Shown: positions 1 to 24,613 of the stretch, one piece after another | Position numbering within the stretch: the stretch's first letter is position 1 | Layout of the letters: the number at the start of each line of letters is the position of its first letter | DNA from: a virus | Virus record (IMG/VR): IMGVR_UViG_3300042696_000086 | Coordinates: 1-31,113 of that record | Strand: one strand, 5' to 3' | Length of the DNA stretch: 31,113 bases | Translations under genes and position numbers: made by a program | The notes under the pieces: generated by a model | Database searches by the model: none | What the model was told of the DNA's origin: nothing | Seen by the model: only the letters and a program-made list of their open reading frames with translations

Positions 1-217
1 CGCAGTAGAAGCCGATGGTCAACATCGGGTAGCCGTCGGCGGACGTGTGCTCCGTGACGACCTTCCACACCGCGGTGTCGGTGCACGGGGGGCGGCCGTC
101 TTGGGTGCGGCGGTAGTTGGTGGTGCAGTCGGCCCAGTCGCTGTAGTCGGGGGCCATCCAGCCGGTGGGGCGGTGGGAAACGTGGATCAGGGGGGCGTTG
201 TGGGTGATGTCGGTCAT
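1..217 (-). CDS. Hypothetical phage protein, 3' end outside window
   Basis: This leftward gene starts with ATG at 217-215, with an AGAGG ribosome binding site just upstream, and runs off the left edge after about 72 codons. The visible part begins MTDITHNAPLIHVSHRP and is rich in Trp, Tyr, Thr and Asp. It has two spaced cysteines and no hydrophobic segment. I do not recognise a family. It is the first gene after the repeat-rich gap that follows the primase-ATPase, so it is either the start of a new leftward transcript or the distal continuation of the early operon. The coding call rests on the RBS, GC-rich third positions and an uninterrupted frame. Confidence 0.7.
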   Translation of the reverse strand, partial: MTDITHNAPLIHVSHRPTGWMAPDYSDWADCTTNYRRTQDGRPPCTDTAVWKVVTEHTSADGYPMLTIGFYC

Positions 218-455
218 TGGGGCCTCTTTCGGCAGTAGATGCATGTGCATGGAGGTGGACAGGTGGACAAAAGGTGGACGTGTCCACCCCCCCCTGTCTC
301 GCGTAGCGCGTGAGTGAGAGTAAATGTCCGTTTTGTATGTGTTTATGAGGGTGAATTGAGGGCCGTTTTTCTCGCGACAGGGGGTGGTGGACAAATGTCC
401 ACCTGTCCACCTCGGCCGAAGGTGGACAGATGTCCACCCCCCTTGTCCACCTCGA
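218..455. repeat. Iteron cluster of DnaA-box-like repeats, possible replication origin
   Basis: This 238-base gap holds ten copies of the octamer TGTCCACC or its complement GGTGGACA. One of the ten is the variant CGTCCACC. The heptamer cores are at 255-261, 263-269, 274-280, 281-287, 387-393, 396-402, 404-410, 422-428, 431-437 and 444-450. Three pairs form inverted repeats with a 2-base spacer (274-287, 387-402, 422-437). The copies flank a stretch at about 315-370 that is clearly AT-richer than the surroundings. The Streptomyces DnaA box is TTGTCCACA; three copies here read TTGTCCACC, matching at 8 of 9 positions. Iterons, an AT-rich stretch and an adjacent primase gene suggest an origin. 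An operator array for a phage repressor is the alternative. Confidence 0.6.
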
Positions 456-3083
456 TTAGTCCGCTTTGACACAGATCCGGTCCCCCTCCTCGAAGACCCA
501 GTCCCGCGCCACCGCGAGCGCCACCGCCTTCTCCACAACCGGCCGGTCCCGGGACGCCAGAGCCTTCTTCAACCCGCCGTAGGAGATCCCCCCGACCTGC
601 GAGGCGTGCCGGACCACAAGCCGGGCCACACGCTCCAGCGCGAGATCCGCACCCTTCTTCGCCACGTGCGAGCGCAGCTCCAACTCGACCTTCGCGTCGG
701 TCTTCCGCTGCTGCTCCAGAGCGGCCTCACGCTCCGCCCGGCGCACCAGGGAGTCACGCACCGCGCACGAGGCCTTCCACACGACCTCGGCCAACTCCCA
801 GTCCTCGACGCTCACGTTGAGCCGGCCGCCGTCGAGGAGCGCGAACAGCGCGGCGAGCTTGACCTTCATCAAGTTGGCGTGGCCGTCGAGCTCGTGGACT
901 TCGAGTTCGCCGCGGCCGCGGGCGACGCGCTCGCGCCACAGCATCTGCTTGATGGACACGGGGAAGTCGATGTCGATCGGGCCGTCGGGGCGGATCTGCC
1001 CGGGGTGGGGGTCGATGGGGCCGGGCCACGGCGGCGGGTCCTCGGGGATGGTGGGGTCGTCCGCCCAGCCCCAGAAGAATCGCTGCGGGGTGCCGGTGTG
1101 CGCGTCGGCCAACAGGACGGTGGCGATGGAGGGCTGGAAGCCGGCGAGGAGGCCGAGGCTGTAGGAGCCGGGCGCGATGTACCGGGTGCGTTCCTCGGAG
1201 GCGTTGGTCTGGCCGAGGGCCTCGCCGATGGCGGCGCGGCGGAGGGTTTCGCCGAGGATGCTGCCGGAGCGTTCGCCGAGCTTGGCCATGGTCTGGCCCT
1301 CGTCGACGTAGAAGAACGCGTTGTGGCGGACCTGCTTGCGGACCTTGGCCATCACGGGGTCGCCCTTGTAGGGGCCCTTGGCGTGGAGTTCGCCGGTCGG
1401 CTCGTCGACGGAGCCCATGAAGGTTTCGGCGATGCCTTCGCCGGAGCCGATGGGCAGGCCGTCGCGGAAGTCGTCGTCCGCGGGGTGCATGAGGTCGCGG
1501 ACGCAGGAGGCGCTGATGGACTTGCCGGCGCCGGAGGTTCCGACCATCGCGGCGAAGATGTTGAGGCTGGCTCGGCCGCCGATGCCGGTGGTGGCGCGGA
1601 TGTGGTGGGAGACCATGCCGGACAGGCGGGCGAGTGTGGAGTAGAGGACGGTGTCGCCGGAGCAGCCTTGGGAGTGTGCGGCCTGGCGGATGTGCTGGAA
1701 GACGGGTCGGGCGTTCCAGAACGTGTCGGGCAGGAGGCCGGGCCGGGCGCCGGTGGGCGTCTCGGTGTCGGTGTCGTCGTTCTCGGGGGGTTCGGTGGGC
1801 CAGTACTCGTCGTCGGCCGTGGTGTCGCGGGGTGCGGCGGGCGGCCGGCAGGTCTGCTGGATCCGTGTGAGGACCGGCATGGGGAGGGCGCGTGCAGCTG
1901 GTGCGGCGTCTTGGCCGAACGCGGCGCGCAGCACGTCGAGGGTGGCTTCGCGTTCGTCGCCTGCGTAGTGGAGGTGGGCCCACAGGGTGGGCACGGTGAG
2001 TTTCTTGCCCGCGGGCTGCTGGCCCACGGGGAGGCCGGAGCGCTCGCTCCAGTTGACGGCGACGTGGTCGTCGCAAACGAGGCTGTAGTCGCTGTCGGGT
2101 GAGCCTTCGGCGCCGGTGGGGCGCAGCCACTTCTCCCGTCCGTCCGCCGCGGTGCCGCGGTAGGTCCAGCCCTGGGGTTCGAGGATGTCGCTGAAGGTGA
2201 GGTGCGCGGCGAGGATGTCAAAGACGCTGCTGCCGGACGCCGAGCGGGGGAAGCCGCTCGCGCTCCGGGCAGGGCGTGGCGCTGGCGCGGTGCGGCCGGT
2301 GCGCTCGTCCTGCCGGGCGCGCTTCTCCGTAGCGGCCTTCTCCAGGATGCGGCGGGCCTCGGGCTCCAGGCGGGCGATGGTCTCGCGCATCACGGCGAGG
2401 TCGATGAGCTGGCCGGTGCCGGGGTAGCTGCTGCTCGCGCGGGGCAGGTCGTTCTTGCGGTTGACGGTGCCGGGGATCCGCATGAGCCGGTCGAGGTTGC
2501 CGACCTGGGTGTCCCAGGTGCAGCCGTACTGGTAGGCGGCGGCGCCGAGGATGGCTTGCAGGGCGGACGTCATCTGCTCGACGGCGTCGCGGTTGTCGTC
2601 GGTGATGAGCACCGGCTCGGTGAGGGTCCACACGGGGTTGCAGCCGCCGCCGGTGTCGACCCAGCCGGACGGCTCGGGGAGTCCGGAGGAGGTGACGATG
2701 TCGCGGACGTGGTCGGCGTCGACGGGGTGGGGCATTTCGTCGGGGCCGGGCTTGTGCCCGATCTGCCCGTAGTCGCCGTCGGCCCACAGCCAGGTGAGTG
2801 CGTGTGCGAGGTCTTTGCCGCCGCGGCCCTTGGTGGGGTGTTCGCGCAGGGTGGTGACCTGTGCGTAGATGCCCTTGGGGCGGCGGGTGTCGAGTTCGGC
2901 GACGTAGCGTGCGGCGGCGGCGATGCCGATCTCGTCGGTGGTGAAGCGTCGTCCGGCCCAGCGGTCTGCGTCGGAGCAGATGCTGATGAGGCCGGGGGCG
3001 TCTTGGTAATGGTACGCGAGTGACGCTCTGACGAGGTCGAGGTCTGCGGCCACTTCCGTGTGCGCGCTGGGTGCGGTTGTCAC
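456..3083 (-). CDS. Primase-ATPase/helicase fusion (AEP-like primase plus DUF3987-like ATPase)
   Basis: This is the largest gene of the early operon (875 aa) and probably the replication initiator that primes and unwinds phage DNA. The N-terminal part looks like an archaeo-eukaryotic-type primase: an acidic W-A-D-G-D-Y motif near residue 101 and an R-I-P-G-T-V-N-R-K motif near 202, which resembles the third motif of that fold. The C-terminal part has a Walker A GTSGAGKS near 515 and a Walker B-like FFYVDEG near 590, as in DUF3987-type phage and plasmid ATPases. A charged, Pro/Thr/Asp-rich linker separates them. I chose the GTG at 3083 because it overlaps the upstream stop as GTGA; an in-frame ATG at 3131 would overlap the previous gene more deeply. 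The downstream neighbour is the iteron region, which fits a replication role. Confidence 0.85.
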   Translation of the reverse strand: MTTAPSAHTEVAADLDLVRASLAYHYQDAPGLISICSDADRWAGRRFTTDEIGIAAAARYVAELDTRRPKGIYAQVTTLREHPTKGRGGKDLAHALTWLWADGDYGQIGHKPGPDEMPHPVDADHVRDIVTSSGLPEPSGWVDTGGGCNPVWTLTEPVLITDDNRDAVEQMTSALQAILGAAAYQYGCTWDTQVGNLDRLMRIPGTVNRKNDLPRASSSYPGTGQLIDLAVMRETIARLEPEARRILEKAATEKRARQDERTGRTAPAPRPARSASGFPRSASGSSVFDILAAHLTFSDILEPQGWTYRGTAADGREKWLRPTGAEGSPDSDYSLVCDDHVAVNWSERSGLPVGQQPAGKKLTVPTLWAHLHYAGDEREATLDVLRAAFGQDAAPAARALPMPVLTRIQQTCRPPAAPRDTTADDEYWPTEPPENDDTDTETPTGARPGLLPDTFWNARPVFQHIRQAAHSQGCSGDTVLYSTLARLSGMVSHHIRATTGIGGRASLNIFAAMVGTSGAGKSISASCVRDLMHPADDDFRDGLPIGSGEGIAETFMGSVDEPTGELHAKGPYKGDPVMAKVRKQVRHNAFFYVDEGQTMAKLGERSGSILGETLRRAAIGEALGQTNASEERTRYIAPGSYSLGLLAGFQPSIATVLLADAHTGTPQRFFWGWADDPTIPEDPPPWPGPIDPHPGQIRPDGPIDIDFPVSIKQMLWRERVARGRGELEVHELDGHANLMKVKLAALFALLDGGRLNVSVEDWELAEVVWKASCAVRDSLVRRAEREAALEQQRKTDAKVELELRSHVAKKGADLALERVARLVVRHASQVGGISYGGLKKALASRDRPVVEKAVALAVARDWVFEEGDRICVKAD

Positions 3084-3397
3084 TGGTGCACCGCCGGGAA
3101 GTAGTAGGCGCCGTTGTGGGCGCCGATGCATCGGGAGTTGCGAGGGCAGAGCCGGGGTTCGCCGAGGTGGCCGGCGGGGTGGATGTGCTGGTGCTCGCAG
3201 TACGGGCAGCAGGTGATGACGAGGTAGAGCAGGGGTCGGCCCTCGGGGTCGTGGATGTCTGCGTCGTGGGCGGCGATGAGCCGTGCAGGTGCGGGCCGGA
3301 GGCCGTAGACGGATTCGGGGCGTTCGGTGGTGTGGGGTGCCGGCGGTGTGGGTGCGGCGGGTTCGTCGTCGAAGAGGGTGGGGGCCGTGGTGTTCAT
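3080..3397 (-). CDS. Small Cys/His-rich protein, possible zinc ribbon
   Basis: This 105-aa protein starts with ATG at 3397, overlapping the upstream stop as ATGA. An earlier in-frame start at 3475 would run deep into the upstream gene and is less likely. The first 40 residues are Pro/Thr-rich and probably disordered. The C-terminal half has C-C-P-Y-C-E-H-Q-H-I-H and a later L-C-P-x-x-S-R-C, so up to five cysteines and several histidines could form a zinc site. It is translationally coupled to the primase by a GTGA junction and may be an accessory replication factor, but that is inference from position only. No named family recognised. Confidence 0.75.
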   Translation of the reverse strand: MNTTAPTLFDDEPAAPTPPAPHTTERPESVYGLRPAPARLIAAHDADIHDPEGRPLLYLVITCCPYCEHQHIHPAGHLGEPRLCPRNSRCIGAHNGAYYFPAVHQ

Positions 3398-8642: not shown

Positions 8643-9376
8643 GACTGCTCACTCCCGCGCTGCGCCGGGATCAGCGGCCACTCCGGGCGCACCGTCTCCG
8701 CGAGGTGCTGCTTGCCGGGCGTCTTCGCGAAGTACTCCCGCAGCCCTTCCGCCTGCTCCGCCGCCCACTTGATTTGCGCGTGGTGCAGCTCCTCCAGGTC
8801 CATCGCGGCCAACTCCGGCCGCGTCGCGCCGAGCCGCCACGCGACCCGGGCCGCGGCAATCGCGTCGGCCGCCGAGTCGTGCGCACCGTCGAGCTTGACC
8901 TTGTAGTGCTCGCACAGCGCGGTCAGCGTGCGGGACCCACGCCGGTAGCGGTCCACCTTCTTGTCGATGACGAACGGGTCGATCACCGGCCAGATCACGT
9001 TGTCGATGTACCGGTCGACGAGCGTGTGGAGGCCGTGGCGTCGGCACTCGCGGTCGAGGACTGTGAGGTCGTAGCGGGCGTTCATCGCCACGATCGGGAT
9101 GCCGTGCTGGAGGACCTGCCCGAGGGCCGCGGTGATCTCCTCGACGACCTCGGCGGCCGGGCGGCCCTCGGCGCGCGCCCGTTCGGTGCTGTAGCCGTGG
9201 ATCTTTGCGGCCTCTTCGGGGATCTCCACGCCCGGGTCGGCGACCCAGGTGGCCGGTTGCGGAGGCTGGCCGCCGCCGACCTGGACGATGCAGGCGGTGA
9301 CGATGCGGGCCTCTTCCGGGTTGGCGGCAGTGGTCTCCAGGTCGAAGGCCGCCATGCGCTTGAGGTGCCAGCTCAT
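8639..9376 (-). CDS. DnaQ-like DEDDh 3'-5' exonuclease
   Basis: This 245-aa protein has the DEDDh exonuclease motifs in order: D12-L-E14-T-T (Exo I), N99-A-R-Y-D103-L (Exo II), and H166-D-S-A-A-D171 (Exo III). These residues bind the two metal ions that remove nucleotides from 3' ends. DnaQ-like proteins proofread for a polymerase or trim recombination intermediates. No polymerase gene is in this window, so the partner may be the host's or lie to the left. The C-terminal 60 residues are helical and charged. ATG 9376 overlaps the stop of the RDF gene as ATGA. Confidence 0.9.
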   Translation of the reverse strand: MSWHLKRMAAFDLETTAANPEEARIVTACIVQVGGGQPPQPATWVADPGVEIPEEAAKIHGYSTERARAEGRPAAEVVEEITAALGQVLQHGIPIVAMNARYDLTVLDRECRRHGLHTLVDRYIDNVIWPVIDPFVIDKKVDRYRRGSRTLTALCEHYKVKLDGAHDSAADAIAAARVAWRLGATRPELAAMDLEELHHAQIKWAAEQAEGLREYFAKTPGKQHLAETVRPEWPLIPAQRGSEQS

Positions 9377-10482
9377 CGGACCTCACCCGCCTTCACCGCG
9401 GCGAGGTAGGCGTTCATCTGCGCGACCGACCCGGACGACGGGTGCGTGCCACCGTTCAACTTGGCGAACCCCGCCTCCACCTGCTCGGCCGTCAGACCGT
9501 GCTGGCCGGCCGCGGCGATGATCTGGAACCACACGGCCTGCACGTCGGCCGGGTCGTCGTCGACTACCTCCGCGTCGTACACGCCCTCCGAATCCGGCAC
9601 CGGCGCAGACGCCGCCTGGCTGGGCGTGGCCTCGGGCTTCGTCTTGGCCGGGGCACCAAGCTCCGCGGCCCGCGCGGTCAGCGCATCCGCGATCGCCTTG
9701 TTCATGTGCCCCGCAGCCACGGCCTGCTCGTACAACTCCCGCACCGCAGCCGGCGTCTTGGCCACCGCGGCGAGCCGCAAGTAGTCCGGCCGCGGCGCCT
9801 CGATCGCAGCCCGCTGCGGACCAGACGCGACCGCCGTGCCCACCGAGGCGGCCCCCGCCATCAGCGCGGCCGGCGTCACAGCAAGGTCGATCGTCGGAAC
9901 CATCCAGTGCCGGGTCTGCCCGTCCCGCTTCGCGGTGCGCTGCTCCAGCCCGAGGAACGCCTCGACGTAGCCGCCCGTCTGCGCCAGGAGCTCGGCGACG
10001 CCCGGAAGTTCGAGTGCGGCGTAGTAGCCGTGGGACTCCAGCCGCCACACCCCGACGCCCTCGATCTCCGAGAGGACGACGTTGAGGCGAGTGGTGGGCT
10101 TGCACTGCCGCTGCTCGGGGTCCGGGCCGCAGATGCACGGCCGGTCCTTCAGCAGCTCGGTGACGCCGTCGCAGCGACGCTGGCAGCCACCTCCCGACCA
10201 CAGTTCGAAGTACTGGGAGACGGGCTGCGGCGGCACGTGGATCGGCATGCGCTTGGCGTCGGTGATGACCTCGTACTGGCCGGCGCCGCCGTCCGGGGTC
10301 CACTCCTGGACGGTGCCGCCGTACTTTGCGGCGACGCGGTCAAGGAGTTCCTTCGACGGGGAGGTCAAGCGGAACCGGTCCAGCTTCGCCGGGCGGCTGC
10401 CGCCCTTGGCGGTGGCGACCTTCTGGCCGATGCGGATGCGGCCCAGCTCACGGAGCCGCTGCTGCAGGGTCAGGATGGGCAT
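9373..10482 (-). CDS. Recombination directionality factor (phiC31 gp3 type)
   Basis: This 369-aa protein resembles the RDF family of phiC31 and phiBT1, which binds the serine integrase and switches it from integration to attL x attR excision. Shared traits, from memory of the family, include the opening L-Q-Q-R-L-R-E-L-G-R-I-R-I-G (6-19), P-A-K-L-D-R-F-R-L-T (31-40), S-Q-Y-F-E-L-W-S-G-G-G-C-Q-R-R-C-D-G (89-106) and W-R-L-E-S-H-G-Y-Y-A (146-155). Cys100, Cys104, Cys116, Cys118 and Cys127 could bind zinc. It is longer than phiC31 gp3; the extra C-terminal segment after about 245 is Ala-rich and helical. A serine integrase and candidate attP lie at 15603-17087, giving a complete switch set. TGATG couples it to the nuclease upstream. 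Confidence 0.85.
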   Translation of the reverse strand: MPILTLQQRLRELGRIRIGQKVATAKGGSRPAKLDRFRLTSPSKELLDRVAAKYGGTVQEWTPDGGAGQYEVITDAKRMPIHVPPQPVSQYFELWSGGGCQRRCDGVTELLKDRPCICGPDPEQRQCKPTTRLNVVLSEIEGVGVWRLESHGYYAALELPGVAELLAQTGGYVEAFLGLEQRTAKRDGQTRHWMVPTIDLAVTPAALMAGAASVGTAVASGPQRAAIEAPRPDYLRLAAVAKTPAAVRELYEQAVAAGHMNKAIADALTARAAELGAPAKTKPEATPSQAASAPVPDSEGVYDAEVVDDDPADVQAVWFQIIAAAGQHGLTAEQVEAGFAKLNGGTHPSSGSVAQMNAYLAAVKAGEVR

Positions 10483-13931: not shown

Positions 13932-14129
13932 TCAGGCGGCGTCAGCCGGCCGGACATCAGCCGACCGAGGACGACGCGGCAGCGGGAACGAAGCGAACAG
14001 CCGCTGGCCGCACAGGATCTGCTCCGGCGTGAACCGGGGAGCCTCCTTCACGCGCCGCTCCACCAGTGCCATGCACTCGGGGCCGAAGACGGCCTCGCAG
14101 TCGGCGAAGGAGAACGGTTGGCCGTTCAT
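13932..14129 (-). CDS. Hypothetical protein after the XRE regulator
   Basis: This 65-aa protein starts with ATG at 14129, overlapping the regulator's stop as ATGA. It begins M-N-G-Q-P-F-S-F-A-D-C-E-A-V-F-G-P-E-C-M and has C-x7-C plus a third Cys. A basic helical stretch follows, ending in a Pro/Arg-rich tail. No family recognised. Co-translation with the regulator suggests it is expressed at the start of lytic growth. Confidence 0.7.
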   Translation of the reverse strand: MNGQPFSFADCEAVFGPECMALVERRVKEAPRFTPEQILCGQRLFASFPLPRRPRSADVRPADAA

Positions 14130-14422
14130 GCCGCGGCCAGCTTGCGGAGGGTGTGAGCGGCTGGATCCAGCCGTTCGACGGGGGTTCCGAGGATGAGGAG
14201 TTCGACGCCGATCACGTCGCAGATCGCGGCGACGACGCTGCCGCGGAGGCGGGGCCGGGTGCCGGTGAGGACGTTGCTGATGGTGCCGGTGGCGATGCCT
14301 GCTTTGGCGGTGAGTTCGCGTCCGCTGATTTCTGCGCCGGTCTTGGTGCGCTTCATCAGTCGTTCGAGGAGTTCGGCGTCGATTTCGAAGAGTGGCTCTT
14401 GGGCCGGGAGTGGTGTGGTCAC
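14126..14422 (-). CDS. XRE-family regulator heading the early operon
   Basis: This 98-aa protein starts with GTG at 14422 after GAGGTGG. Residues 18-75 form a helix-turn-helix: L-M-K-R-T-K-T-G at the front, then G-R-E-L-T-A-K-A-G-I-A-T-G-T-I-S-N-V-L-T-G-T as the recognition unit, then A-I-C-D-V-I-G-V-E-L-L-I-L. Position suggests a Cro-like protein: first gene of the early leftward operon, opposite a second XRE gene at 14695. A GTCCAC half-site (14425-14430) overlaps its ribosome binding site, so it could be autoregulated. The role as Cro versus a different regulator is inferred from layout only. Confidence 0.85.
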   Translation of the reverse strand: MTTPLPAQEPLFEIDAELLERLMKRTKTGAEISGRELTAKAGIATGTISNVLTGTRPRLRGSVVAAICDVIGVELLILGTPVERLDPAAHTLRKLAAA

Positions 14423-14694
14423 GCGTCCACCTCATGCAATGGATCTGCCTTGCGGTGTTGCACCGCTTGGATGGAGAGAGCATTGCATAGCGTGGACGCA
14501 ATGTCCACGGGCTTGGATGGTTGCGTGAGAAATTCGCCAAACAGGCCGGACGCCCTGGCGCCCGCTGTCCATTTGCGTGGACACTCTGTGCAGCGCGTGG
14601 ACCACAGGGACCCGCGCCACCAGGAGGTATCCGCCGCATACCTCACTGGTCACGTGGACACCCCACGGCCCACGAGACGAACCGGAGTGGCATG
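14423..14694. promoter_or_regulatory. Divergent switch region with CGTGGACA-type operator sites
   Basis: The 272 bases between the divergent XRE genes hold several copies of GTGGAC/GTCCAC: 14425-14430, 14492-14497 with 14503-14508 (an inverted pair), 14577-14582, 14597-14602 and 14654-14659, plus a TGTCCA at 14566-14571. All but the first of the full sites are flanked as CGTGGAC. There is also GCGGTG-ttg-CACCGC (14452-14466), ATGCAAT paired with ATTGCAT (14434-14440, 14482-14488), and GAGGTAT paired with ATACCTC (14624-14644). This density of inverted repeats between two HTH genes is typical of a phage lysis-lysogeny switch. I cannot assign -35/-10 boxes with confidence. Confidence 0.65.
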
Positions 14695-15677: not shown

Positions 15678-17087
15678 ATGCGCCACGATCCCGCAGACCC
15701 GCAACTCGCCTGCATCTACTGTCGCATGAGCGAAGACCGCGAAGGCGGCGGCCTCGGCGTCGAGAGGCAACGCGAGGACTGCGAACAGCTTGCCCAACAG
15801 CTCGGCCTCACCGTCGCCCGCGTCTACGCCGACAACGACCTCTCCGCATACTCCGGCAAACCCCGGCCCGAATACCAGCAGATGCTCGACGACCTCCGCG
15901 CAGGCATGTACGGCACCGTCCTCGCCTGGCACACCGACCGCCTCCACCGGCGCCCCGCCGAACTGGAGGAGTACATCGACGTCTGCGAACCCCGCGGCAT
16001 CGCCACCCGTACCGTCCAGGCCGGGGCCATCGACCTCACCACCGCCGCCGGGCGGCTCATGGCCCGCCAGCTCGGCAGCATGGCCCGCTACGAAGTGGAG
16101 CACATGATCGAGCGGCAGAAACGGGCCCGCGAGCAGAAGGTGCAGCGCGGCGAGTACTGCGGCGGCATGCGCCCCTACGGCTGGGAAAAGGACGGCACCA
16201 CCCCCGTCCCCAAGGAGATCGCCGTCATCCGTGAAGCCGCCGAGACCATCCTCGCCGGCGGCTCCGTCCGAGCCCTCGCCGCCGACCTCAACGCACGCGG
16301 CCTCCACAGCAGCACCGGCGCCCGCTGGGACGGCAGCACCCTACGCCGCATGCTCATGCGTCCCCGCAACGCGGGCATCCTCCAGCACCGCGGCCAGGAA
16401 GCCGGACCCGCACAGTGGGACGGCGCCCTCGACGAGCCGACCTGGCGAAGCCTGCGGGCCGTCCTCGACGACCCTTCCCGCATCCCCACACGGTCCAACG
16501 TGCGCAAGCACCTCGGCTCCGGGCTCTACCTGTGCGGGGTGTGCGGCGAGACCCTCACCTCGTTCTCCAAGGGCTCCGGACATCCGGCCAAGTACAAGTG
16601 CCGCAAGAACGACTGCGTCCTGCGGGACCTCGTGATGCTGGACAAGTGGGTCGTCCTGCACTTGCTGAAGCGCCTCGGTCAGCCGGATGCCGCCGAGGTG
16701 TTCGCCCGCACGGATGATGGCGGCCCGGACCTGGGGGCGGCACAGGCTGCGCTGGAGGAGGCACGCAAGGGCCTGGACGAGCTGGCGGCGGCGTTCGGTG
16801 CGGGGGAGATCGACATGCAGGAGTGGCGGATCGCCAGGTCCAGCCTGCGCGCGCGCAAGGAGGCGGCCGAGGGGGTGCTGTCGTCGGCGGTGCGGGTGAA
16901 CCCAGTGGCCGAGCTGCTGCAGGCCGACGACATAGTGGCCGCCTGGGAGGGCTGGGATCTGGCGCGGCAGCGTGCGGCGGTGGACTGGGCGATGACGGTG
17001 CGGGTGCTTCCGGCGAAGGTGGGGCGCCGTCCGGGTGGCGCCTACTGGGATCCCGATGCGGTGGAGATCGTGTTCCGGCGGAAGTAA
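15678..17087 (+). CDS. int: Large serine recombinase / phage integrase
   Basis: This 469-aa protein is a large serine integrase that would join attP and the host attB by double-strand cleavage through a serine-DNA bond. Residues 10-155 form the resolvase-like domain, with A-C-I-Y-C-R-M-S18-E-D carrying the nucleophile Ser18 and a W-H-T-D-R-L-H-R-R stretch with active-site-type arginines. The recombinase domain spans about 160-270. The zinc ribbon has Cys286, Cys289, Cys308 and Cys313, and a coiled coil (about 352-402) is inserted before the final beta segment, as in the phiC31 class. It is shorter than phiC31 integrase. ATG 15678 is needed to keep the catalytic N-terminus, though no Shine-Dalgarno is visible. 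A terminator follows at 17087. Confidence 0.95.
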   Translation: MRHDPADPQLACIYCRMSEDREGGGLGVERQREDCEQLAQQLGLTVARVYADNDLSAYSGKPRPEYQQMLDDLRAGMYGTVLAWHTDRLHRRPAELEEYIDVCEPRGIATRTVQAGAIDLTTAAGRLMARQLGSMARYEVEHMIERQKRAREQKVQRGEYCGGMRPYGWEKDGTTPVPKEIAVIREAAETILAGGSVRALAADLNARGLHSSTGARWDGSTLRRMLMRPRNAGILQHRGQEAGPAQWDGALDEPTWRSLRAVLDDPSRIPTRSNVRKHLGSGLYLCGVCGETLTSFSKGSGHPAKYKCRKNDCVLRDLVMLDKWVVLHLLKRLGQPDAAEVFARTDDGGPDLGAAQAALEEARKGLDELAAAFGAGEIDMQEWRIARSSLRARKEAAEGVLSSAVRVNPVAELLQADDIVAAWEGWDLARQRAAVDWAMTVRVLPAKVGRRPGGAYWDPDAVEIVFRRK

Positions 17088-17120
17088 CAGGGCCCCCAGC
17101 CATTGGCTGGGGGCTCCTGT
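17087..17120 (+). terminator. Integrase terminator hairpin
   Basis: A perfect 10-bp stem, GCCCCCAGCC (17092-17101) with GGCTGGGGGC (17105-17114), has a 3-base loop. It is lengthened by ACAGG (17087-17091) pairing with CCTGT (17116-17120) across a bulged T. It begins at the last base of the integrase stop codon. No T-run follows, which is common for actinobacterial terminators. Confidence 0.8.
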
Positions 17121-17316
17121 GGCCCGCCCTCCGGTCGCCTGGGAAGCTGCGGAGGGGGGCCGTCTGTGGGTGCCTCATGTGGCGCGTACCCGCAGGTGCG
17201 GGACTGTTTACCCGCGCGGGCCGATCTCCTCGAATTGTCCACGTTCTGTTCTGCGTCTTCGAAAATGTACGGTGCACGATACAGACACCGCTTCATGATC
17301 CACCCAGGGTGGTCGG
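17121..17316 (+). promoter_or_regulatory. Upstream region of the third XRE gene
   Basis: This 196-base gap holds one TTGTCCACG site (17235-17243), matching the CGTGGACA motif of the switch region. It also has short palindromes TTCGAA near 17258 and GTGCAC near 17272. A GATACA near 17278 might be a -10. The placement suggests that the same regulator may control this gene. Nothing else is recognisable. Confidence 0.35.
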
Positions 17317-17547
17317 GTGCCGTCCGCGCCTCCGCCCGCATGGGTCCTCGCCCGGCGCCAGGCCGTCGGCACCAACATCCGCACCGCCCGGCGAGCGTGT
17401 GGCCTGTCCCAAGAACGCCTCGCCGAACTAGCCGGCATGGACCGGCAGGCAATCAACCGCATCGAGCAGGGCCACCAGTCGCCGATCCTCGACAACCTGA
17501 TCCGTATCGCCGACGCGCTCGGGGTGCCGCTCGCAGAGTTGGTGTGA
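17317..17547 (+). CDS. Small XRE-family helix-turn-helix protein
   Basis: This 76-aa protein starts with GTG 17317 after AGGGTGG. Residues 16-75 are a textbook XRE domain: G-T-N-I-R-T-A-R-R-A-C-G-L-S-Q-E-R-L-A-E-L-A-G, then R-Q-A-I-N-R-I-E-Q-G-H-Q-S-P and L-D-N-L-I-R-I-A-D-A-L-G-V-P. It has no other domain, so it probably acts as a simple dimeric repressor. Similar stand-alone XRE proteins are abundant in Streptomyces chromosomes. It is flanked by hairpins at 17087-17120 and 17548-17583, so it forms its own transcription unit. Confidence 0.9.
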   Translation: MPSAPPPAWVLARRQAVGTNIRTARRACGLSQERLAELAGMDRQAINRIEQGHQSPILDNLIRIADALGVPLAELV

Positions 17548-17583
17548 CCCGCCGCCGGCGTCGGCAAAGGCACCGGCGGCGGG
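17548..17583 (+). terminator. Terminator hairpin of the small XRE gene
   Basis: A perfect 11-bp stem, CCCGCCGCCGG (17548-17558) with CCGGCGGCGGG (17573-17583), starts at the base after the stop codon and has a 14-base loop. A second, shorter inverted repeat, GGCCGCTC with GAGCGGCC, follows from 17586. The remaining gap to 17689 holds no gene I can support. Confidence 0.7.
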
Positions 17584-17688
17584 GTGGCCGCTCCACCTAG
17601 AGGGCGTGAGAGCGGCCGTCACCCTCCCGCGCAGGGTCACGGGCCTTCACACGGGAGAGGTCTGGGAAAGCGGGCGCGGCGCCGGGTT

Positions 17689-18057
17689 TCACCGCGGCGT
17701 CAGCCGTTCGTAGTGGTTGCACAGCGCGGTCACGGAGCGGGCGAGTTTCTGCACCACGCTGACGCGGATGGCGAGCGCGTCGCCATCTCCCATGCGGAGC
17801 TTGTTCTGCGCCTCGGCGACACCGGCGCGCGCGCAGAACTTGTTGAGCTCGTCGCGTGGCTTCGTGGTGGCAAGTTCCGACACTGCGGGGATGAGGACGC
17901 AGAGGTGGCCGCGCAGCGTTTCAGCGAGGACGCTCAGGTCATCCGTGTCGGGCGCGTCAGCCAGGGCGAGCCGGGCGGTCTCACGCATGGTGTGGATGTC
18001 CGGCGGATCCGCCTCGCCTGCGGCCGTTTCCTCCGGTTTGTCGATGCGGTGCGCCAT
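17689..18057 (-). CDS. DUF6415-type protein
   Basis: This 122-aa leftward protein starts with ATG 18057 after GGGAGG. Its core fits, from memory, the DUF6415 pattern of short Streptomyces proteins: L-A-E-T-L-R-G-H-L-C-V-L-I-P-A-V-S-E-L-A (46-65), then a long helical region ending in V-V-Q-K-L-A-R-S-V-T-A-L-C-N-H-Y-E. Family function is unknown; members often sit near regulators like the one upstream. The helical, uncharged core suggests a scaffold or binding role. It is more typical of the host chromosome than of phage cores, so it may have been picked up from a host. Confidence 0.7.
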   Translation of the reverse strand: MAHRIDKPEETAAGEADPPDIHTMRETARLALADAPDTDDLSVLAETLRGHLCVLIPAVSELATTKPRDELNKFCARAGVAEAQNKLRMGDGDALAIRVSVVQKLARSVTALCNHYERLTPR

Positions 18058-18128
18058 CGCTCACGCCTCCCCGCGTGTGGTGATCCGTCTCACACACGGG
18101 ACGGTAGGTCCGGTCGGGAACCAGCAGA

Positions 18129-18143
18129 GGCACAGTTTGTGCC
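18129..18143 (-). promoter_or_regulatory. Short inverted repeat between the DUF6415 and large XRE genes
   Basis: GGCACA-gtt-TGTGCC (18129-18143) is a 6-bp inverted repeat in the 94-base gap between two leftward genes, nine bases after the stop of the regulator. GTGTG and CACAC repeats lie next to it at about 18076-18097. It could be a weak terminator of the regulator or an operator for the DUF6415 gene. Confidence 0.35.
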
Positions 18144-18151
18144 CATCCGCA

Positions 18152-19420
18152 TCACGCGGCGAGCAGCCCAAGCTTCACCGCGAGCTCCGACGCACGACGC
18201 CGGCGGGCCGGGCTTTTCGCCTCGGTCTCCTCCAGCACGATCCGCTTGGCGTACCCGTTGTACTTGATGGTCTCCGGGGCGGCCTCGTGTGCCTGCGCGA
18301 GCGTGGCGAGGGCGACGTCCGGCTGCCCGTCGAGCTGGTAGCCGCGAGCCTCCTCGATGCGGTGCCGTGCCCGGCGCGGCCGGGACGGGATGACCAGGGC
18401 GTCCGCGGCGGCTGCCTGCCGCACGGACTCGCCGCCCTGGTGCAACTCGACGGCGACGGTCACTGCGTGGGCGCCCATGATGGCCTGCGAGAAGCTGGTG
18501 ATCGGGTGGTAGTAGTCGGCGGGTAGCCGGTCGGCCATGCTGCGGGCCTGGTCCCAGTACCGCCAGGCGGTGCCCGTCTCGCCGCGGCGGGCCGCGGTGT
18601 ACCCGGCCTCGAAGGTGAGTGCACCCGCGATGGCCAGCACGTCGTCCGTGGCGTCCGGCAGTAGGGGTTCGAGGAAGGCGATGGTCTCCAGGTTCACTGC
18701 GTCGGCCGCGTCGAAGTGCGCGGGCCCTGCGTCGCGGTGTGCCTGCGCGGCCAGCCACGCGGCGACGCCGATGGCGTGCGGGTCCTCGGATTCCTGGGCG
18801 GCGATCAGACCCCGGTCGGCGACGCGCCACAGCAGCGCGGGGTCGGGCTGGTAGGCGCAGAAGAACTGGGCGAGGGAGTACACCTCCGCGAGGATCGCGT
18901 GCGCGGCGCGGCGCTCGGGCCCGGTGTTGGCCTGACGCACGCCAGCCTGGGCGTCGCGGATCAGATCCGGCAGGAGTTCGCCGATGACCTCGCGGTGGTT
19001 GGGTGCGCTGTGGCGGGCCGCCCAGGCGCGGGCGAGTCGTGCGCGCAGGTGTGCTGATGGGGGTGCGGGCCGTTGGGCGGTGAGGGGGAACGCGTCGACG
19101 GCTGCTTTGACTTCGGGGAGGCGTGGGTGGCCCGGTCCGGTGAAGAGGTCGACGTGCACGGACTGGTCCCCTGTGAGGTCGGAGAGGTCCCGGACGCGGA
19201 GGATCTCGGCGAGGCGGAGGACGACTTCGAGCTTCGGGGTCTTCAGGCGTCCGGTTTCGATGCCCTTGACCCAGGAGCCGGATCGTCCTGCGAGGCCGCC
19301 GAGTTGGTCGCGGGTGAGGCCCTTGCGGGTGCGGAGGATCTGCAGTCGTTGGCCGAAGACCATGGGGTCGGCGTAGGGGTCCGGGGTAGCATCAGAAGGC
19401 GACAGGGCCTTGCCTCTCAC
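18152..19420 (-). CDS. XRE regulator with long helical (TPR-like) C-terminal region
   Basis: This large leftward regulator has an XRE domain in V-F-G-Q-R-L-Q-I-L-R-T-R-K-G-L-T-R-D-Q-L plus G-L-A-G-R-S-G-S-W-V-K-G-I-E-T-G-R. About 330 residues of Ala-rich helices follow, with the A-x-x-A/Y spacing of tetratricopeptide repeats. Streptomyces has many such XRE-TPR proteins, which sense a ligand or partner through the helical part. The start is uncertain. I chose GTG 19420; ATG 19498 would add a stretch with poor codon bias, and ATG 19363 would leave only a few residues before the HTH. No Shine-Dalgarno is visible at any of them; a TACTCT at 19443-19448 could be the -10 for a short leader. Likely host-derived. 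Confidence 0.85.
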   Translation of the reverse strand: MRGKALSPSDATPDPYADPMVFGQRLQILRTRKGLTRDQLGGLAGRSGSWVKGIETGRLKTPKLEVVLRLAEILRVRDLSDLTGDQSVHVDLFTGPGHPRLPEVKAAVDAFPLTAQRPAPPSAHLRARLARAWAARHSAPNHREVIGELLPDLIRDAQAGVRQANTGPERRAAHAILAEVYSLAQFFCAYQPDPALLWRVADRGLIAAQESEDPHAIGVAAWLAAQAHRDAGPAHFDAADAVNLETIAFLEPLLPDATDDVLAIAGALTFEAGYTAARRGETGTAWRYWDQARSMADRLPADYYHPITSFSQAIMGAHAVTVAVELHQGGESVRQAAAADALVIPSRPRRARHRIEEARGYQLDGQPDVALATLAQAHEAAPETIKYNGYAKRIVLEETEAKSPARRRRASELAVKLGLLAA

Positions 19421-19521
19421 TCTGTACAGCGTCCACTGCCCAGAGTAGGAGGCGGGGCCTGTTTCGTGTGAGGGGTTGGGGTTGGCCGCAACCGGCATGA
19501 GTGATTCGAGGCCCTGATCGA

Positions 19522-19527
19522 TAGTCT
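19522..19527 (+). promoter_or_regulatory. -10 element of a leaderless gene
   Basis: TAGTCT ends six bases before the ATG at 19534 with no Shine-Dalgarno between them. This is the spacing expected when transcription starts at the start codon. Confidence 0.5.
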
Positions 19528-19533
19528 TTGTGT

Positions 19534-19713
19534 ATGTCCCCCGACTCGCCCTGCCCGGGTTCTGTGCGGCCTGCTGCGGTCGTGAATGCGGAGATCCGTG
19601 CGTTGTTGGAGCGGACTCGGCGGCGGTTGTCTGATGTGGAGCGCGCCGAGTACGAGGGACTCGTCGAGGAGTACGAGGCGGCCAGGCGGGCTGAGATCAC
19701 CACGGCTGCGTGA
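19534..19713 (+). CDS. Small helical hypothetical protein, probably leaderless
   Basis: This 59-aa rightward protein begins M-S-P-D-S-P-C-P-G-S-V and then forms one long charged helix (V-N-A-E-I-R-A-L-L-E-R-T-R-R-R-L-S and E-Y-E-G-L-V-E-E-Y-E-A-A-R-R-A). Short proteins of this kind are common in Streptomyces and their phages but have no assigned role. ATG 19534 is preferred over TTG 19528 because of the leaderless promoter spacing. Its last 17 bases overlap the end of the converging gene at 19697. Confidence 0.7.
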   Translation: MSPDSPCPGSVRPAAVVNAEIRALLERTRRRLSDVERAEYEGLVEEYEAARRAEITTAA

Positions 19714-19924
19714 CGGCTGGGGCGAGCTTGGCCTGGATGCGGGCGAGAGCGGCACGGACGTCCTTGGCGCCCGGGTCCTGCCGGTCGCGCCACTCCTCTT
19801 CCAACGCAAGGCACTCGCGGTACACGTCCCGCAGGGTTCGTAGAGCGAGCAGGCCCGCTCCTTTGCTGGCCTCTGCTGCTGCTTTCTGGAGCCGCTGATA
19901 GGCGGCGCTCGGCTCGTCAGTCAT
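19697..19924 (-). CDS. Small helical hypothetical protein
   Basis: This 75-aa leftward protein starts with ATG 19924 after AAGGGAT. It is entirely helical in appearance: Y-Q-R-L-Q-K-A-A-A-E-A-S-K-G-A-G-L-L-A-L-R, then E-C-L-A-L-E-E-E-W-R-D-R and V-R-A-A-L-A-R-I-Q-A-K-L. It has one cysteine and no membrane segment. A terminator-like hairpin just upstream separates it from the next leftward gene, so it probably has its own promoter. No family recognised. Confidence 0.7.
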   Translation of the reverse strand: MTDEPSAAYQRLQKAAAEASKGAGLLALRTLRDVYRECLALEEEWRDRQDPGAKDVRAALARIQAKLAPAVTQPW

Positions 19925-19984
19925 GTCGATCCCTTCGCGTTGGCGTCCTTCGCTGGGTACGGACGACGTAACTCGCGGCGTGAC

Positions 19985-20010
19985 GAAGCCCCGCACGATG
20001 GCGGGGCTTC
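19985..20010 (-). terminator. Terminator hairpin
   Basis: A perfect 10-bp stem, GAAGCCCCGC (19985-19994) with GCGGGGCTTC (20001-20010), has a 6-base loop. It lies 14 bases after the stop of the leftward gene at 20025. No T-tract follows, but the stem is very stable and short-looped. Confidence 0.75.
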
Positions 20011-20024
20011 GGTGGGCGCGTTGC

Positions 20025-20420
20025 CTACTGCATCGGGTCCGATCCGGCGCCTTCGTCGCCGTCGAGCCACGCGTAGTAGTCGCGGCCCTGCCATGCGGTG
20101 TGCCGGGAGTGCGGGCCCTTCTCGCCGCAGTAGACGGTGTCCGGCATGGGGTCCTCGCGGAAGGTGGCGAGGCAGTGGGCGTCGGGCTCGTCGTCGACGC
20201 ACTTGTACTCTCTGGCGCGGCACGCGACCACATCGACGGACCGCTCCGTCCCGTGTAGCAGCCAGTCGACGGTACGTCCGGCCGCCTCGGCGATGAGCGC
20301 GTACTCCAGACTGGTCGGCAGGCACCCTCCGGCGAGGATCTCGTGCATGCGGGCATCCGAAACGCCTTCGACGGTGACCCCGTCCGTCACCGCTCGGATG
20401 CGGTTCAGCTTCTCGCTCAC
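20025..20420 (-). CDS. HTH-like protein with Cys-rich C-terminal region
   Basis: This 131-aa protein starts with GTG 20420 (GTGA overlap). Residues 5-60 resemble an XRE-type HTH: L-N-R-I-R-A-V-T, D-A-R-M-H-E-I-L-A-G-G, then L-E-Y-A-L-I-A-E-A-A-G-R-T-V-D-W-L-L-H-G. After that, cysteines at about 68, 74, 83 and 98 with H82 and other histidines suggest a metal site. HTH plus metal-binding suggests a small sensor-regulator or a DNA-binding accessory protein. The HTH is a moderate match by eye; the recognition helix is less clear than in the neighbouring XRE genes. Confidence 0.7.
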   Translation of the reverse strand: MSEKLNRIRAVTDGVTVEGVSDARMHEILAGGCLPTSLEYALIAEAAGRTVDWLLHGTERSVDVVACRAREYKCVDDEPDAHCLATFREDPMPDTVYCGEKGPHSRHTAWQGRDYYAWLDGDEGAGSDPMQ

Positions 20421-20623
20421 TTGCCCTCCCGTGCCTGGTTCCACCACGTGTTGCGTTGCGGGTTGACTTCGACGGGCTCGCGTGCACTGCCAGGGCACGG
20501 CGGGTGACCAAGGCGCCGGGGCCAACCTCGCCGCCAATGCTGGTGCATCAGCCCCTTGCCGGTGAGGCGTTTGGCCTGCCTGCAGTGGCCGCATTCGCCA
20601 AAGTTGACCTCTGCTTGGGTCAC
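20417..20623 (-). CDS. Small basic CxxC protein
   Basis: This 68-aa protein starts at GTG 20623, which overlaps the preceding stop as GTGA; a second GTG at 20626 is directly before it. It begins V-T-Q-A-E-V-N-F-G-E-C-G-H-C-R-Q-A-K-R-L and continues with a Trp/Arg-rich basic middle (H-W-R-R-G-W-P-R-R-L). One CxxC, a later Cys and several His could bind zinc, and the charge suits nucleic-acid binding. It is coupled to genes on both sides. Confidence 0.65.
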   Translation of the reverse strand: MTQAEVNFGECGHCRQAKRLTGKGLMHQHWRRGWPRRLGHPPCPGSAREPVEVNPQRNTWWNQAREGK

Positions 20624-20976
20624 CACTGGTCACCCATGTGGGAGAGCGGCTTGGCGGCTTGCCCGAGGTAGCCGCCGCCAGTGGCGATGAGTCGCCGCGC
20701 CTCGCTCAACGCAAGCCGCGCCTCCTCCATAGCCGCGTCGACGCCCGAGAGGTCGTCCATGCGGATGGACCCCGACTTCTCCATGGCGCGGAGCTGCTTC
20801 CAGGTCTGCTCGATCGCCTGCGGCAGGCCCTGCACGAGCTGGGCGAGCGCACTGATCGTGCGGTAGGCGTCGGCGGGCTGCTCGAACGCCTGGGTGTCGA
20901 TGGTGCGGTGGTTGAAGGTGCGGATCTCATCGGCGGCGGACTGGGCGATGATGACGGGCTCGCGGTTCAGGTTCAT
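20620..20976 (-). CDS. Hypothetical helical protein divergent from the Phd/DUF6221 module
   Basis: This 118-aa leftward protein probably starts at ATG 20976: a -10-like TACAGT on the leftward strand (20988-20983) ends six bases before it, so the mRNA would be leaderless. An alternative ATG lies at 20991. The protein is helical and moderately charged (Q-S-A-A-D-E-I-R-T-F-N-H-R, A-L-A-Q-L-V-Q-G-L-P-Q-A-I-E-Q-T-W-K-Q-L-R-A-M, A-A-M-E-E-A-R-L-A-L-S-E-A). It contains no cysteine. Its promoter overlaps one TGTACA box of the adjacent Phd module, so it may be co-repressed. Function unknown. Confidence 0.7.
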   Translation of the reverse strand: MNLNREPVIIAQSAADEIRTFNHRTIDTQAFEQPADAYRTISALAQLVQGLPQAIEQTWKQLRAMEKSGSIRMDDLSGVDAAMEEARLALSEARRLIATGGGYLGQAAKPLSHMGDQW

Positions 20977-21034
20977 GGCATCACTGTACATAGCGACTTC
21001 ATGTACATCAAGACGGAATGGTAATCTCGTCTCT
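20977..21034. promoter_or_regulatory. Divergent leaderless promoters with two TGTACA boxes
   Basis: TGTACA occurs at 20985-20990 and 21002-21007. The first overlaps the leftward -10 (TACAGT), and the second sits where the rightward -35 should be, upstream of TAATCT (21022-21027), which ends seven bases before ATG 21035. Neither gene has a Shine-Dalgarno. The layout mirrors 3784-3827 in front of the other Phd-type gene. TGTACA is the operator core of E. coli YefM, so self-repression by the Phd-type protein is likely. Confidence 0.65.
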
Positions 21035-21262
21035 ATGGACCCCAACGCCGAAGACCAGCCGATCGCGGTCGCCCGCGCCAACATCTCCAAGCTGCACAAC
21101 GCCGTGCAGCTACTCAGGCGCGTCTACTTCCTCACCAGCAGGGGCACACGCGAAGCCGCCGTCGTCCCCGTCGACCTCGGCGAACTCGTCCAGGGAGTCG
21201 GCGGAGTCGATGTCGCCGTCGCCATCCTCAAGACGGCTAAGGAGGCCCACGATGGTCGCTGA
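21035..21262 (+). CDS. Phd/YefM-family antitoxin-like protein
   Basis: This 75-aa protein fits Phd/YefM: I-A-V-A-R-A-N-I-S-K-L-H-N-A-V-Q-L-L for the first half, then V-Y-F-L-T-S-R-G-T-R-E-A-A-V-V-P-V-D-L-G-E. The last part shares T-S-R-G-x-R-x-A-A-x-V-P-V with the protein at 3828. The C-terminal 25 residues are helical (V-D-V-A-V-A-I-L-K-T-A-K-E) and are where Phd-type antitoxins contact a toxin. It overlaps the DUF6221 gene by 11 bases, and a strong AAGGAGG for that gene lies inside its last codons. It is probably an autorepressor; whether it neutralises anything is open. Confidence 0.8.
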   Translation: MDPNAEDQPIAVARANISKLHNAVQLLRRVYFLTSRGTREAAVVPVDLGELVQGVGGVDVAVAILKTAKEAHDGR

Positions 21263-21716
21263 CCTGGTGCAGTTCCTGCGGGCTTGCTTCGACGAAGACG
21301 AGCAAGCCGCATGTGCATGGCCTGCGGATCAGCGCGCTTGGGAGGCGCGTGGACGCCGTCAGGTCGGCTACGACTCAGGGGTTCTTGAGGGCGTGTCCGT
21401 GATTAGTGTCGGCGGCCCGGGGCCGTGCGGTTGGGAGCGGATCAGCGTCAAGCGTGATGTGGACGGGCTAGCTGGCCACATCGCCTGCCACGATCCGGCA
21501 AGGGTGCTGCGGGAGATCGACGCCAAGCGGAAGCTGGTCGACGAGCACAAGCCCGGCATGCAGAAGGGGTGGCCGAACATGGGGCGGCACTGCCTGTCGT
21601 GCACCGGTGCCCGGGTCTGGGATGAATCGTCGAACGAGTCGAACTGCCTGACCCTTCGCCTCCTGGCGCTGCCCTATGCGGACCGGCCCGGCTACCGCAA
21701 CGAGTGGCGACCGTAA
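21252..21716 (+). CDS. DUF6221-type protein coupled to the Phd gene
   Basis: This 154-aa protein starts with ATG 21252 after AAGGAGG. It matches, from memory, the DUF6221 pattern: D-L-V-Q-F-L-R-A-C-F-D-E-D-E-Q at the start, H-I-A-C-H-D-P-A-R-V-L-R-E-I-D-A-K-R-K-L in the middle, H-C-L-S-C-T-G near the end, and A-L-P-Y-A-D-R-P-G-Y-R-N-E-W as the closing motif. The family is common in Streptomyces and its phages and has no known function. The conserved H-x-x-x-H-D-P-A-R could be catalytic or metal-binding. Translational coupling to a Phd-type antitoxin gene makes a toxin role conceivable. Confidence 0.75.
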   Translation: MVADLVQFLRACFDEDEQAACAWPADQRAWEARGRRQVGYDSGVLEGVSVISVGGPGPCGWERISVKRDVDGLAGHIACHDPARVLREIDAKRKLVDEHKPGMQKGWPNMGRHCLSCTGARVWDESSNESNCLTLRLLALPYADRPGYRNEWRP

Positions 21717-21721
21717 CCGCA

Positions 21722-21727
21722 TAGGAT
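21722..21727 (+). promoter_or_regulatory. -10 element of a leaderless gene
   Basis: TAGGAT, a strong actinobacterial -10 match, ends six bases before the GTG at 21734. There is no Shine-Dalgarno between, so transcription and translation probably start together. Confidence 0.55.
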
Positions 21728-21733
21728 CCCGGG

Positions 21734-21958
21734 GTGCCACACACTTTCGAAGATCTCGTGCAGCTGGAGCAGGCGGCGGTCGCCGCGCACGCCGCCCTCC
21801 GTACCGCCGACGACCCGGCCACCGCCCGGCAGGCGGCCGTCGACGCCTCCGCCGCCTTCCAGGCCGCCGTCACCGAATACGCCGAGGAGAAGAAAGAGCC
21901 ACGGGTCACGGTGGAGATGCAGGCCAAGCAAGCCGTCCGGCACCCACAGGCAGGCTAG
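21734..21958 (+). CDS. Small Ala-rich helical protein, probably leaderless
   Basis: This 74-aa protein starts with GTG 21734. It is Ala-rich and helical (L-V-Q-L-E-Q-A-A-V-A-A-H-A-A-L-R, A-A-V-D-A-S-A-A-F-Q-A-A-V-T-E-Y) and ends with a charged E-E-K-K-E-P-R and a Q-A-K-Q-A-V. It contains no cysteine or membrane helix. It converges on the fibre-like gene, with 19 bases between stop codons and no terminator that I can see. Function unknown. Confidence 0.7.
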   Translation: MPHTFEDLVQLEQAAVAAHAALRTADDPATARQAAVDASAAFQAAVTEYAEEKKEPRVTVEMQAKQAVRHPQAG

Positions 21959-21977
21959 CGACCCACGTCCTCGCCGA

Positions 21978-23648: not shown

Positions 23649-23657
23649 GGTGATCTC

Positions 23658-24269
23658 CTAGTACTTGGTGCGCCGCGGGTCCAGCGCCTGCGGGGACGGG
23701 GAGTCGTTGCCGCCTGGATCGGGTGCGCCGTCCTTGCGGCACACCAGGGCATCCGGGTCATAAGAGGGCGCCTGCAGCGAGTAGCCGTCGGGGCAGGTCT
23801 GCCCGTCCTTGCCGTCCTGGCCGGCGGGCCCTTGCTCGCCCTGCGGTCCGGCTGGCCCGGGGTCACCCGGGACGCCCTGAGGTCCCGCAGGCCCGGCCGG
23901 TCCGGTGGGTCCGACCGGGCCAGGGCTCCCCGTGGCGCCGGCACTGCCAGGCTTGCCGATCTTGCCCGGCGATCCGGACGGGCCAGGTGAGCCGGGTTCC
24001 CCCTGGTCGCCTTTCGCGCCGCGGGGTCCGATGATGCTCTGTCCTGGCTCGCCGCGGCTTCCTGGCGGGCCCGCCACGGGCTTGTGTCCGAGGGCTTGTA
24101 CCTGCTGGGCCAGGGCGTCACGCGCCTGGTTGGCGGTGCGTAGGTCGTGTGCCAAGGCCTGCACGGTGATGACGATCCAGGCGAGCAAGGCGAGCGCCAC
24201 GACGGCGCCGAGCGTGAACCACAGGTCTGCTCGGCGGCGGGCCTTGGCTGGCGAGCTGTGATTGCTCAC
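23658..24269 (-). CDS. Membrane-anchored collagen-like protein
   Basis: This 203-aa protein starts with GTG 24269 (GTGA overlap). Residues 1-15 are basic, 16-38 form a transmembrane helix, 39-62 a short coiled coil that could nucleate a trimer, and 67-156 an almost continuous G-x-y tract with many G-P-x triplets, typical of phage and bacterial collagen-like stalks. A C-terminal region has Cys159 and Cys177 in C-P-D-G-Y and L-V-C-R-K. The TM helix is unusual for a virion stalk; it suggests a type II membrane protein with the collagen part outside. It may cooperate with the downstream fibre protein or act as a spanin-like element. Function unproven. Confidence 0.75.
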
Positions 24270-24613
24270 GAACCCGCCCCCTTGGCCGCGAGGTATGCCT
24301 GTAGGAGCACGATCAGCACGGGCACGATCAGCGCCGAGAAGATCAGACGCCGGTCTGCGCGCCGCTGGTCCTCGACCCTCTGGCGGGCCGCCGCCATTTC
24401 CTGGCGTTCCTTGTCGCGTGCCGTCTCGATCGCCTGGATGCGCTCCATCATCTGGACGTGGACCTCGTCCCGGTTGCGCCGCTCGATCTCGTACCGCTCG
24501 ACGGAGACCTTCTTTTCGAGCAGGCCGACGAGCTCGCGGAAGTCCTCCTTGAGGTCTATGCGCATGGCCTCAATGCGGTGGGCGAGCTCCGCGTTTGACG
24601 GGTCGTCGGCCAC
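24266..24613 (-). CDS. Coiled-coil protein with C-terminal membrane helix (holin-like)
   Basis: This 115-aa protein starts with GTG 24613 after GGAG. Residues 8-90 are a highly charged helix ([16 protein letters not shown] and on), and 91-110 form one membrane helix ([17 protein letters not shown]). Such tail-anchored proteins lie beside endolysins in many actinophages and are annotated as holins or membrane lysis accessories. It sits between the four-helix candidate and the collagen-like gene. The exact role, holin or regulator of holin, is unresolved. Confidence 0.7.

Follow-up and report, generated by a model that had tools for sequence, protein, structure and literature searches.

Satellites of the SaPI/PICI kind have a self-loading Rep helicase with an origin 3' of rep, and it is the C-terminal domain of Rep that recognises the iterons (PMC6092414, PMC7581432). 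For SCCmec Cch2, the isolated C-terminal domain of the helicase binds direct repeats downstream of its own gene, and in SaPI Rep and SCCmec Cch2 together there is experimental precedent for iterons just downstream of a gene being bound by the C-terminal domain of its product (PMC7581432). Coliphage P4 alpha is a fused primase-helicase with a cis region, crr, directly 3' of its gene. In ORF904 of pRN1, primase, helicase and winged helix are all combined in one protein, and the origin, which also lies 3' of the gene, is a long stem-loop without identified iterons, the helicase being of the SF3 kind (PMC4234260). The DUF3987 proteins have been predicted to be replicative helicases of mobile elements and are listed as uncharacterised in PMC5862659, the available part of which describes no origin or sequence specificity for them. 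In the open-licence literature, we found neither origins nor sequence specificity reported for the DUF3987-like primase-helicase family that is the subject here; work on Streptomyces or actinophage origins with iterons contained nothing on this family, and searches with the repeat motif itself returned only unrelated sequences.

The locus analysed here is in IMG/VR record IMGVR_UViG_3300042696_000086. The window, i.e., the whole stretch of DNA that was analysed, is the complete record, a linear fragment of 31,113 bases, so a second origin elsewhere in the phage could be missing from it. Judging by its gene content, it reads as a temperate actinophage, with genes for a serine integrase (15678-17087), a phiC31 Gp3-like directionality factor (9373-10482), an exonuclease, and WhiB-like and HNH proteins. 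The DNA to the right of the integrase (17100-31113), with its HTH_31 regulator and a glycosyltransferase (28694-29770), resembles host chromosome, and the record may therefore be a prophage plus flank. A megablast search of phage records gave Streptomyces phage mu1/6 as the nearest phage by DNA, matched in one stretch only, at 71.7%, in the recombination region, and a tRNA search found none.

A mirrored iteron array beside the primase gene

The primase-ATPase gene (456-3131, minus strand, an ORF of 891 aa) is followed by an intergenic gap of 239 bases (217-455), which extends from its stop codon (456) to the ATG (214-216) that starts the next gene, also on the minus strand. That gene is cut by the left edge of the record, and only its start (1-216, minus strand, 72 aa) is visible. 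Ten GGTGGACA-type repeats occupy positions 254-451, between the primase stop codon and the next gene. Nine of them are exact copies of TGTCCACC/GGTGGACA (starting at 254, 262, 281, 386, 396, 404, 421, 431 and 444), with no others in the 31,113 bases; 1.67 would be expected by chance over the whole window, and none of 100 shuffles reached nine. The tenth, at 273-280, is a variant, CGTCCACC/GGTGGACG. Among all 420-base stretches of the window, the iteron region has the densest 7-mer repeat. A sequence-only reading of the same DNA had described ten copies, one a variant and three inverted pairs among them, flanking an AT-richer stretch just after the primase-ATPase gene, and this description was borne out, the convergent inverted pairs being 273/281, 386/396 and 421/431.

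Absent from that description was the mirror order of the copies, which fall into two clusters. The primase-distal cluster A (254-288) comprises the copies at 254-261, 262-269, 273-280 (the GGTGGACG variant) and 281-288, in the plus-strand order > > > <, while the primase-proximal cluster B (386-451) comprises those at 386-393, 396-403, 404-411, 421-428, 431-438 and 444-451, in the plus-strand order > < < > < <. Taken in the reading direction of the primase gene, the order is > > < > > <, a gap of about 100 bases, and > < < <, i.e., the clusters mirror each other across the most AT-rich 60 bases in the 31-kb record. Of 31,053 60-mers, the two lowest in GC start at 311 and 313 and have 40% GC vs. 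a mean of 69%; both lie in the AT-richer stretch between the clusters (289-385), a putative melting region.

The window strand folds unusually well at the array (z = -7.3), a consequence of the mirrored and inverted order of the iterons. This fold, and the precedent of pRN1, whose origin is 3' of a fused primase-helicase (PMC4234260), are what could recommend a stem-loop origin, in which the signal would be the structure rather than the repeat sequence. We regard this as highly improbable, since the iteron order accounts for the fold, many relatives keep repeats that vary in number and spacing, and the repeat letters track the protein (see below).

At the edge of the AT-rich stretch is a short GC-rich inverted element, CTCGCGTAGCGCGTGAGTGAG (298-317), and by-eye inspection of relatives shows a similar CGCG-n-CGCG element there. 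An AAAA-n-GGACAT element and the CGCG-n-CGCG hairpin are kept in many relatives, at 298-360 here and in the equivalent gaps of others (L015-L021, and L095-L101 from Streptomyces prophages); because GGACAT is retained in L021, whose iterons now have ATGTAC, some other factor probably recognises it.

As in SaPI/PICI, the iterons are immediately 3' of a putative initiator-helicase gene, and, on its sequence features, the layout matches the satellite type of origin (SaPI/PICI, P4), although the carriers are ordinary actinophages and the putative initiator belongs to a family, DUF3987, that is still uncharacterised. The differences are also plain: SaPI/PICI are satellites, whereas the loci described below include complete, isolated actinophages, and SCCmec Cch2 belongs to another helicase family, has 5-base iterons and lacks a fused primase. 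P4 shares with the window both the fused primase-helicase and a cis region directly 3' of its gene, and its type 1 repeats (GGTGAACA in the P4 record) are one base from GGTGGACA, but in P4 the ori is a separate site, distant from the alpha gene. Between P4 alpha and the window primase there is no recognisable similarity beyond the ATP-binding loop, and membership of the P4 alpha family was rejected despite the near-identical repeats. Likeness of mechanism thus does not imply membership. ORF904 of pRN1, for its part, resembles the window protein in its composition and in the position of its origin, and departs from it in having an SF3 helicase and a stem-loop in place of iterons (PMC4234260).

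The primase-ATPase and its C-terminal module

The true start of the primase may be a GTG near 3083, at a point where its frame and the stop codon of the gene before it overlap. From its N-terminus, the protein has a primase-polymerase-like half (aa 1-469; 1725-3131, minus strand), an AAA+ motor domain that resembles MCM and has a weak Pfam match to DUF3987 (aa 470-775; 807-1724, minus strand), and a long helix followed by a winged helix (aa 812-891; 459-698, minus strand), the last being the proposed iteron-binding domain. The DUF3987 match was the only one in Pfam and was sub-threshold. The Pfam search found neither a DUF927 nor a D5/Primase_Cterm domain in the primase, and these are the domains of the SaPI/PICI helicases; the window helicase, being of the DUF3987 kind, is placed outside the SaPI/PICI Rep protein family.

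An AlphaFold2 model of aa 470-891 (mean pLDDT 93.4, pTM 0.83) has an AAA+ core followed by a long helix and, at the C-terminus, a winged helix. Its best structural matches in the PDB were MCM chains, with E-values from 4e-7 and modest TM-scores of about 0.4, and all 50 of the PDB matches listed were chains of MCM-containing entries (motor plus C-terminal winged helix). In agreement with the model, the last 75 residues have a weak sequence match to the winged helices of MCM4 and RPA32, and the isolated C-terminal domain, when modelled alone, again gave a winged helix. The modelling thereby points to a C-terminal half that is an MCM-like AAA+ motor with a winged helix, and the MCM-like helicases of mobile elements are among its closest known counterparts. 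The predicted recognition helix starts at S860, and its tip is formed by A859-S860-R861-D862-R863 (543-557, minus strand), the candidate specificity residues.

Relatives of the primase were drawn from viral contigs, bacterial genomes and annotated phages, and about 150 related loci were compared. Repeated 7-mers located up to 400 bp 3' of the gene were taken as significant when they exceeded dinucleotide shuffles (p <= 0.005). Such repeats were present in 75 of the 95 loci that encode the module and have distinct downstream DNA, about a fifth of these 95 being without them, and in 63 of the 95 the 3' repeats exceeded every other window of their own locus. The recurring layout is one of repeats, a gap of about 90-220 bp, and repeats again in mirrored orientation, typically '>>< gap ><<', and the AT-richest 50-mer of the whole locus is inside the inter-cluster gap in 53 of the 58 loci with an assigned core. 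Complete, isolated phages are among these loci: all ten CGTGGACA copies of Gordonia phage Tarzan are between 36554 and 36799, in this region, and TinyDot has 11 of its 12 copies at the same position.

The repeats go with one half of the protein. L009, L010 and L011 have the N-terminal primase half in common with the window (53-55% identity) and another C-terminal half, and such repeats are absent from them, while L013, which has the same C-terminal half and a different N-terminal primase domain, carries GGTGGACA. Within the sequences compared, the computation shows the repeats to be linked to the C-terminal module of the primase.

Some further observations concern individual loci. In place of iterons, L009-L011 have a conserved AT-rich 3' region (TTGATTACTTACAGGTCTCC...). 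In L025, L026 and L046, a window away from the primase end has one 7-mer in more copies (10-18) than are present in the putative origin. The annotated hypothetical genes 55 of Tarzan (L110, 5137-5409) and 58 of TinyDot (L116, 5149-5499) overlie the iteron arrays and are probably not genes.

The gene that follows the repeats is not conserved; in 57 loci it falls into 26 groups, and no single family accompanies the iterons. Binding of the array by the protein of the next gene was for this reason rejected. It likewise bears on the idea that the repeats, which do lie upstream of a gene, are an operator array through which a phage repressor or transcription factor controls that gene. Six GTGGAC sites also occur in the repressor region at 14425-14659, which could be taken in favour of the idea, but the downstream gene is not constant, the repeat letters track the primase helix, and mirrored clusters set ~100 bp apart by AT-rich DNA do not look like an operator; we consider this explanation very unlikely, although operator function could be an added role of the array. 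The sites at 14425-14659 are a looser second cluster, the densest for GTGGAC outside the origin; they include the palindromes CGTGGACgcaatGTCCACG and TGTCCAtttgcgTGGACA and are located between a Cro-like HTH gene (14126-14422, minus strand) and a divergent repressor-like gene. They could be operators of the repressor or a link between initiator and immunity.

Repeat letters and the tip of the predicted recognition helix

With the iteron numbered G1G2T3G4G5A6C7A8, 393 variable protein columns were scanned against one iteron position at a time, with overall divergence controlled. Position 3 was best predicted by residue 863 (partial r 0.81, the next best of the 393 columns having 0.47), while residues 860 and 859 ranked sixth and third for positions 5 and 6, respectively. 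A partial-correlation scan of all core positions together, in which residue 863 was second, was led by rare changes in conserved columns, and the single-position scans were more informative. Of 59 loci, 36 paired R863 with T3, and 17 of the 18 with K863 had G3. Over all loci compared, position 3 has exceptions in L085, L134 and L232, and also L165. In the 59 loci, S, G or N at 860 accompanied G5 in 50 of 54, Y, H, K or A accompanied T5 in five of five, and T859 occurred with C6 in two of two and nowhere else, the rules for positions 5 and 6 having first been seen in the same data that they describe. In the xGRDK clade, residue 860 does not explain position 5, and more than residues 859, 860 and 863 is needed. 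These three residues may lie on one side of the helix, so as to read the bases in reverse order.

Pairs of related loci provide natural examples of such changes. The cleanest natural pair is L078/L118, 95% identical over the module, in which ASRDR becomes TSRDR (A859T) and GTGGACA becomes GTGGCCA throughout the array, the origins being otherwise alignable. S is replaced by H as ATGGAC changes to ATGTAC in L017/L021 (63%), and by Y as GTGGACA changes to GTGTACA in L080/L090 (67%); R becomes K at 861 as GGGGGACA becomes GGGGAACA in L026/L050 (88%), and K becomes R at 863 as GGGGGACA becomes GGTGGACA in L234/L235. On a tree built from the ATPase part alone, each specificity switch has a branch of its own and no switch contradicts the rule; there are few independent switches, about 8, and taken one by one the tests fall short of significance.

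A prediction rule was fixed before the repeats of unseen loci were read. Among 54 further distinct loci, a canonical helix together with significant, automatically framable repeats was present in 13, and for these the rule was right for 37 of 39 bases (11 of 13 at position 3 and 13 of 13 each at positions 5 and 6). Over 20,000 permutations, the number right averaged 24.8 and never exceeded 34, a baseline whose p is optimistic because some of the 13 loci are close relatives, and always guessing the consensus gave 28. Both misses were at position 3, in L134 and L232; L165 (SSRDR with GGGGGACA) is a further miss, unscored, being shortened by a contig end. For the sequences at hand, this computation shows the repeat letters to be predictable from a few amino acids at the primase tip.

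These letters also bear on DnaA, since the sequence-only reading had offered an origin that recruits host DnaA, a decoy that titrates DnaA, and iterons for the phage's own initiator as explanations of the array. It had noted that several copies match the Streptomyces DnaA box at eight of nine positions with C as the last base, which is true of three of the ten (TTGTCCACC); the C ending is common to all ten iterons, whereas the DnaA box ends in A, the full TTGTCCAC is present in only three, and the exact box, TTGTCCACA, in none. A DnaA site should be conserved in sequence wherever host DnaA is conserved, yet the relatives hold the layout and change the core (GGGGGACA, GTGTACA, ATGGACA, GTGGCCA, GTCGGACA and others), which is impossible for a DnaA site, and the cores track the primase helix and not the host, several same-layout relatives in Streptomyces genomes using GGGGGACA. 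An origin whose repeats are DnaA boxes for the host protein, despite its three eight-of-nine matches and its neighbouring AT-rich stretch, is accordingly unsupported and scarcely credible. A titrating decoy, to which ten DnaA-box-like sites within 200 bp might seem suited, meets the same evidence from copies and relatives, and would need neither the mirrored layout nor the AT-rich centre nor the link to the primase C-terminus; its probability is close to negligible. Iterons for the phage's own initiator, the remaining proposal, are strongly supported by the position 3' of the primase, the two clusters around an AT-rich stretch, and the letters that track the primase winged helix.

A candidate origin and its initiator

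The stretch at 217-455 is thus very probably a replication origin of the phage used by its own primase-helicase, with the winged helix on the iterons, opposed hexamers and melting of the AT-rich stretch, and, as far as sequence comparison can tell, replication is most likely started by the phage's own protein rather than by host DnaA. Computation provides the iterons with their statistics, a layout that is conserved, its linkage to the module, the residue-to-base correspondence with its test on unseen loci, and a confident fold model; we infer that the C-terminal domain binds the iterons, that two hexamers are loaded and that replication starts at this place. In the mechanism that we propose, the C-terminal winged helix of the primase would bind the GGTGGACA iterons and in this way dock the primase-helicase; iteron position 6 would be read by residue 859, position 5 by residue 860 and position 3 by residue 863. 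The MCM-like AAA+ part would then assemble on the mirror-ordered clusters, probably as two opposed hexamers, and melt the AT-rich stretch between them, after which the N-terminal primase domain of the same protein would start new strands.

On a broader scale, it is probable, if less so than the assignment of this one origin, that actinophages have a large family of primase-helicases with MCM-like motors which act as self-loading initiators, that each of these recognises the mirrored iterons of its own origin by a short and largely predictable amino-acid-to-base code (863 to base 3, 860 to 5, 859 to 6), and that initiator and origin specificity have been switched together several times. The origin of a broad group of actinophages would thereby be placed beside proteins that are annotated only as DUF3987 or 'DNA primase/polymerase', which suggests that the satellite type of origin is not confined to satellites. 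If the modelled fold and the sequence comparisons are a good guide, these phages would also offer an example of an MCM-like motor aimed at an origin by its own winged helix. Finally, the natural residue-to-base correspondence makes the coevolution of initiator and origin directly testable with natural pairs of protein and origin, and with it origins may be found, and the specificity of their initiators predicted, from sequence alone.
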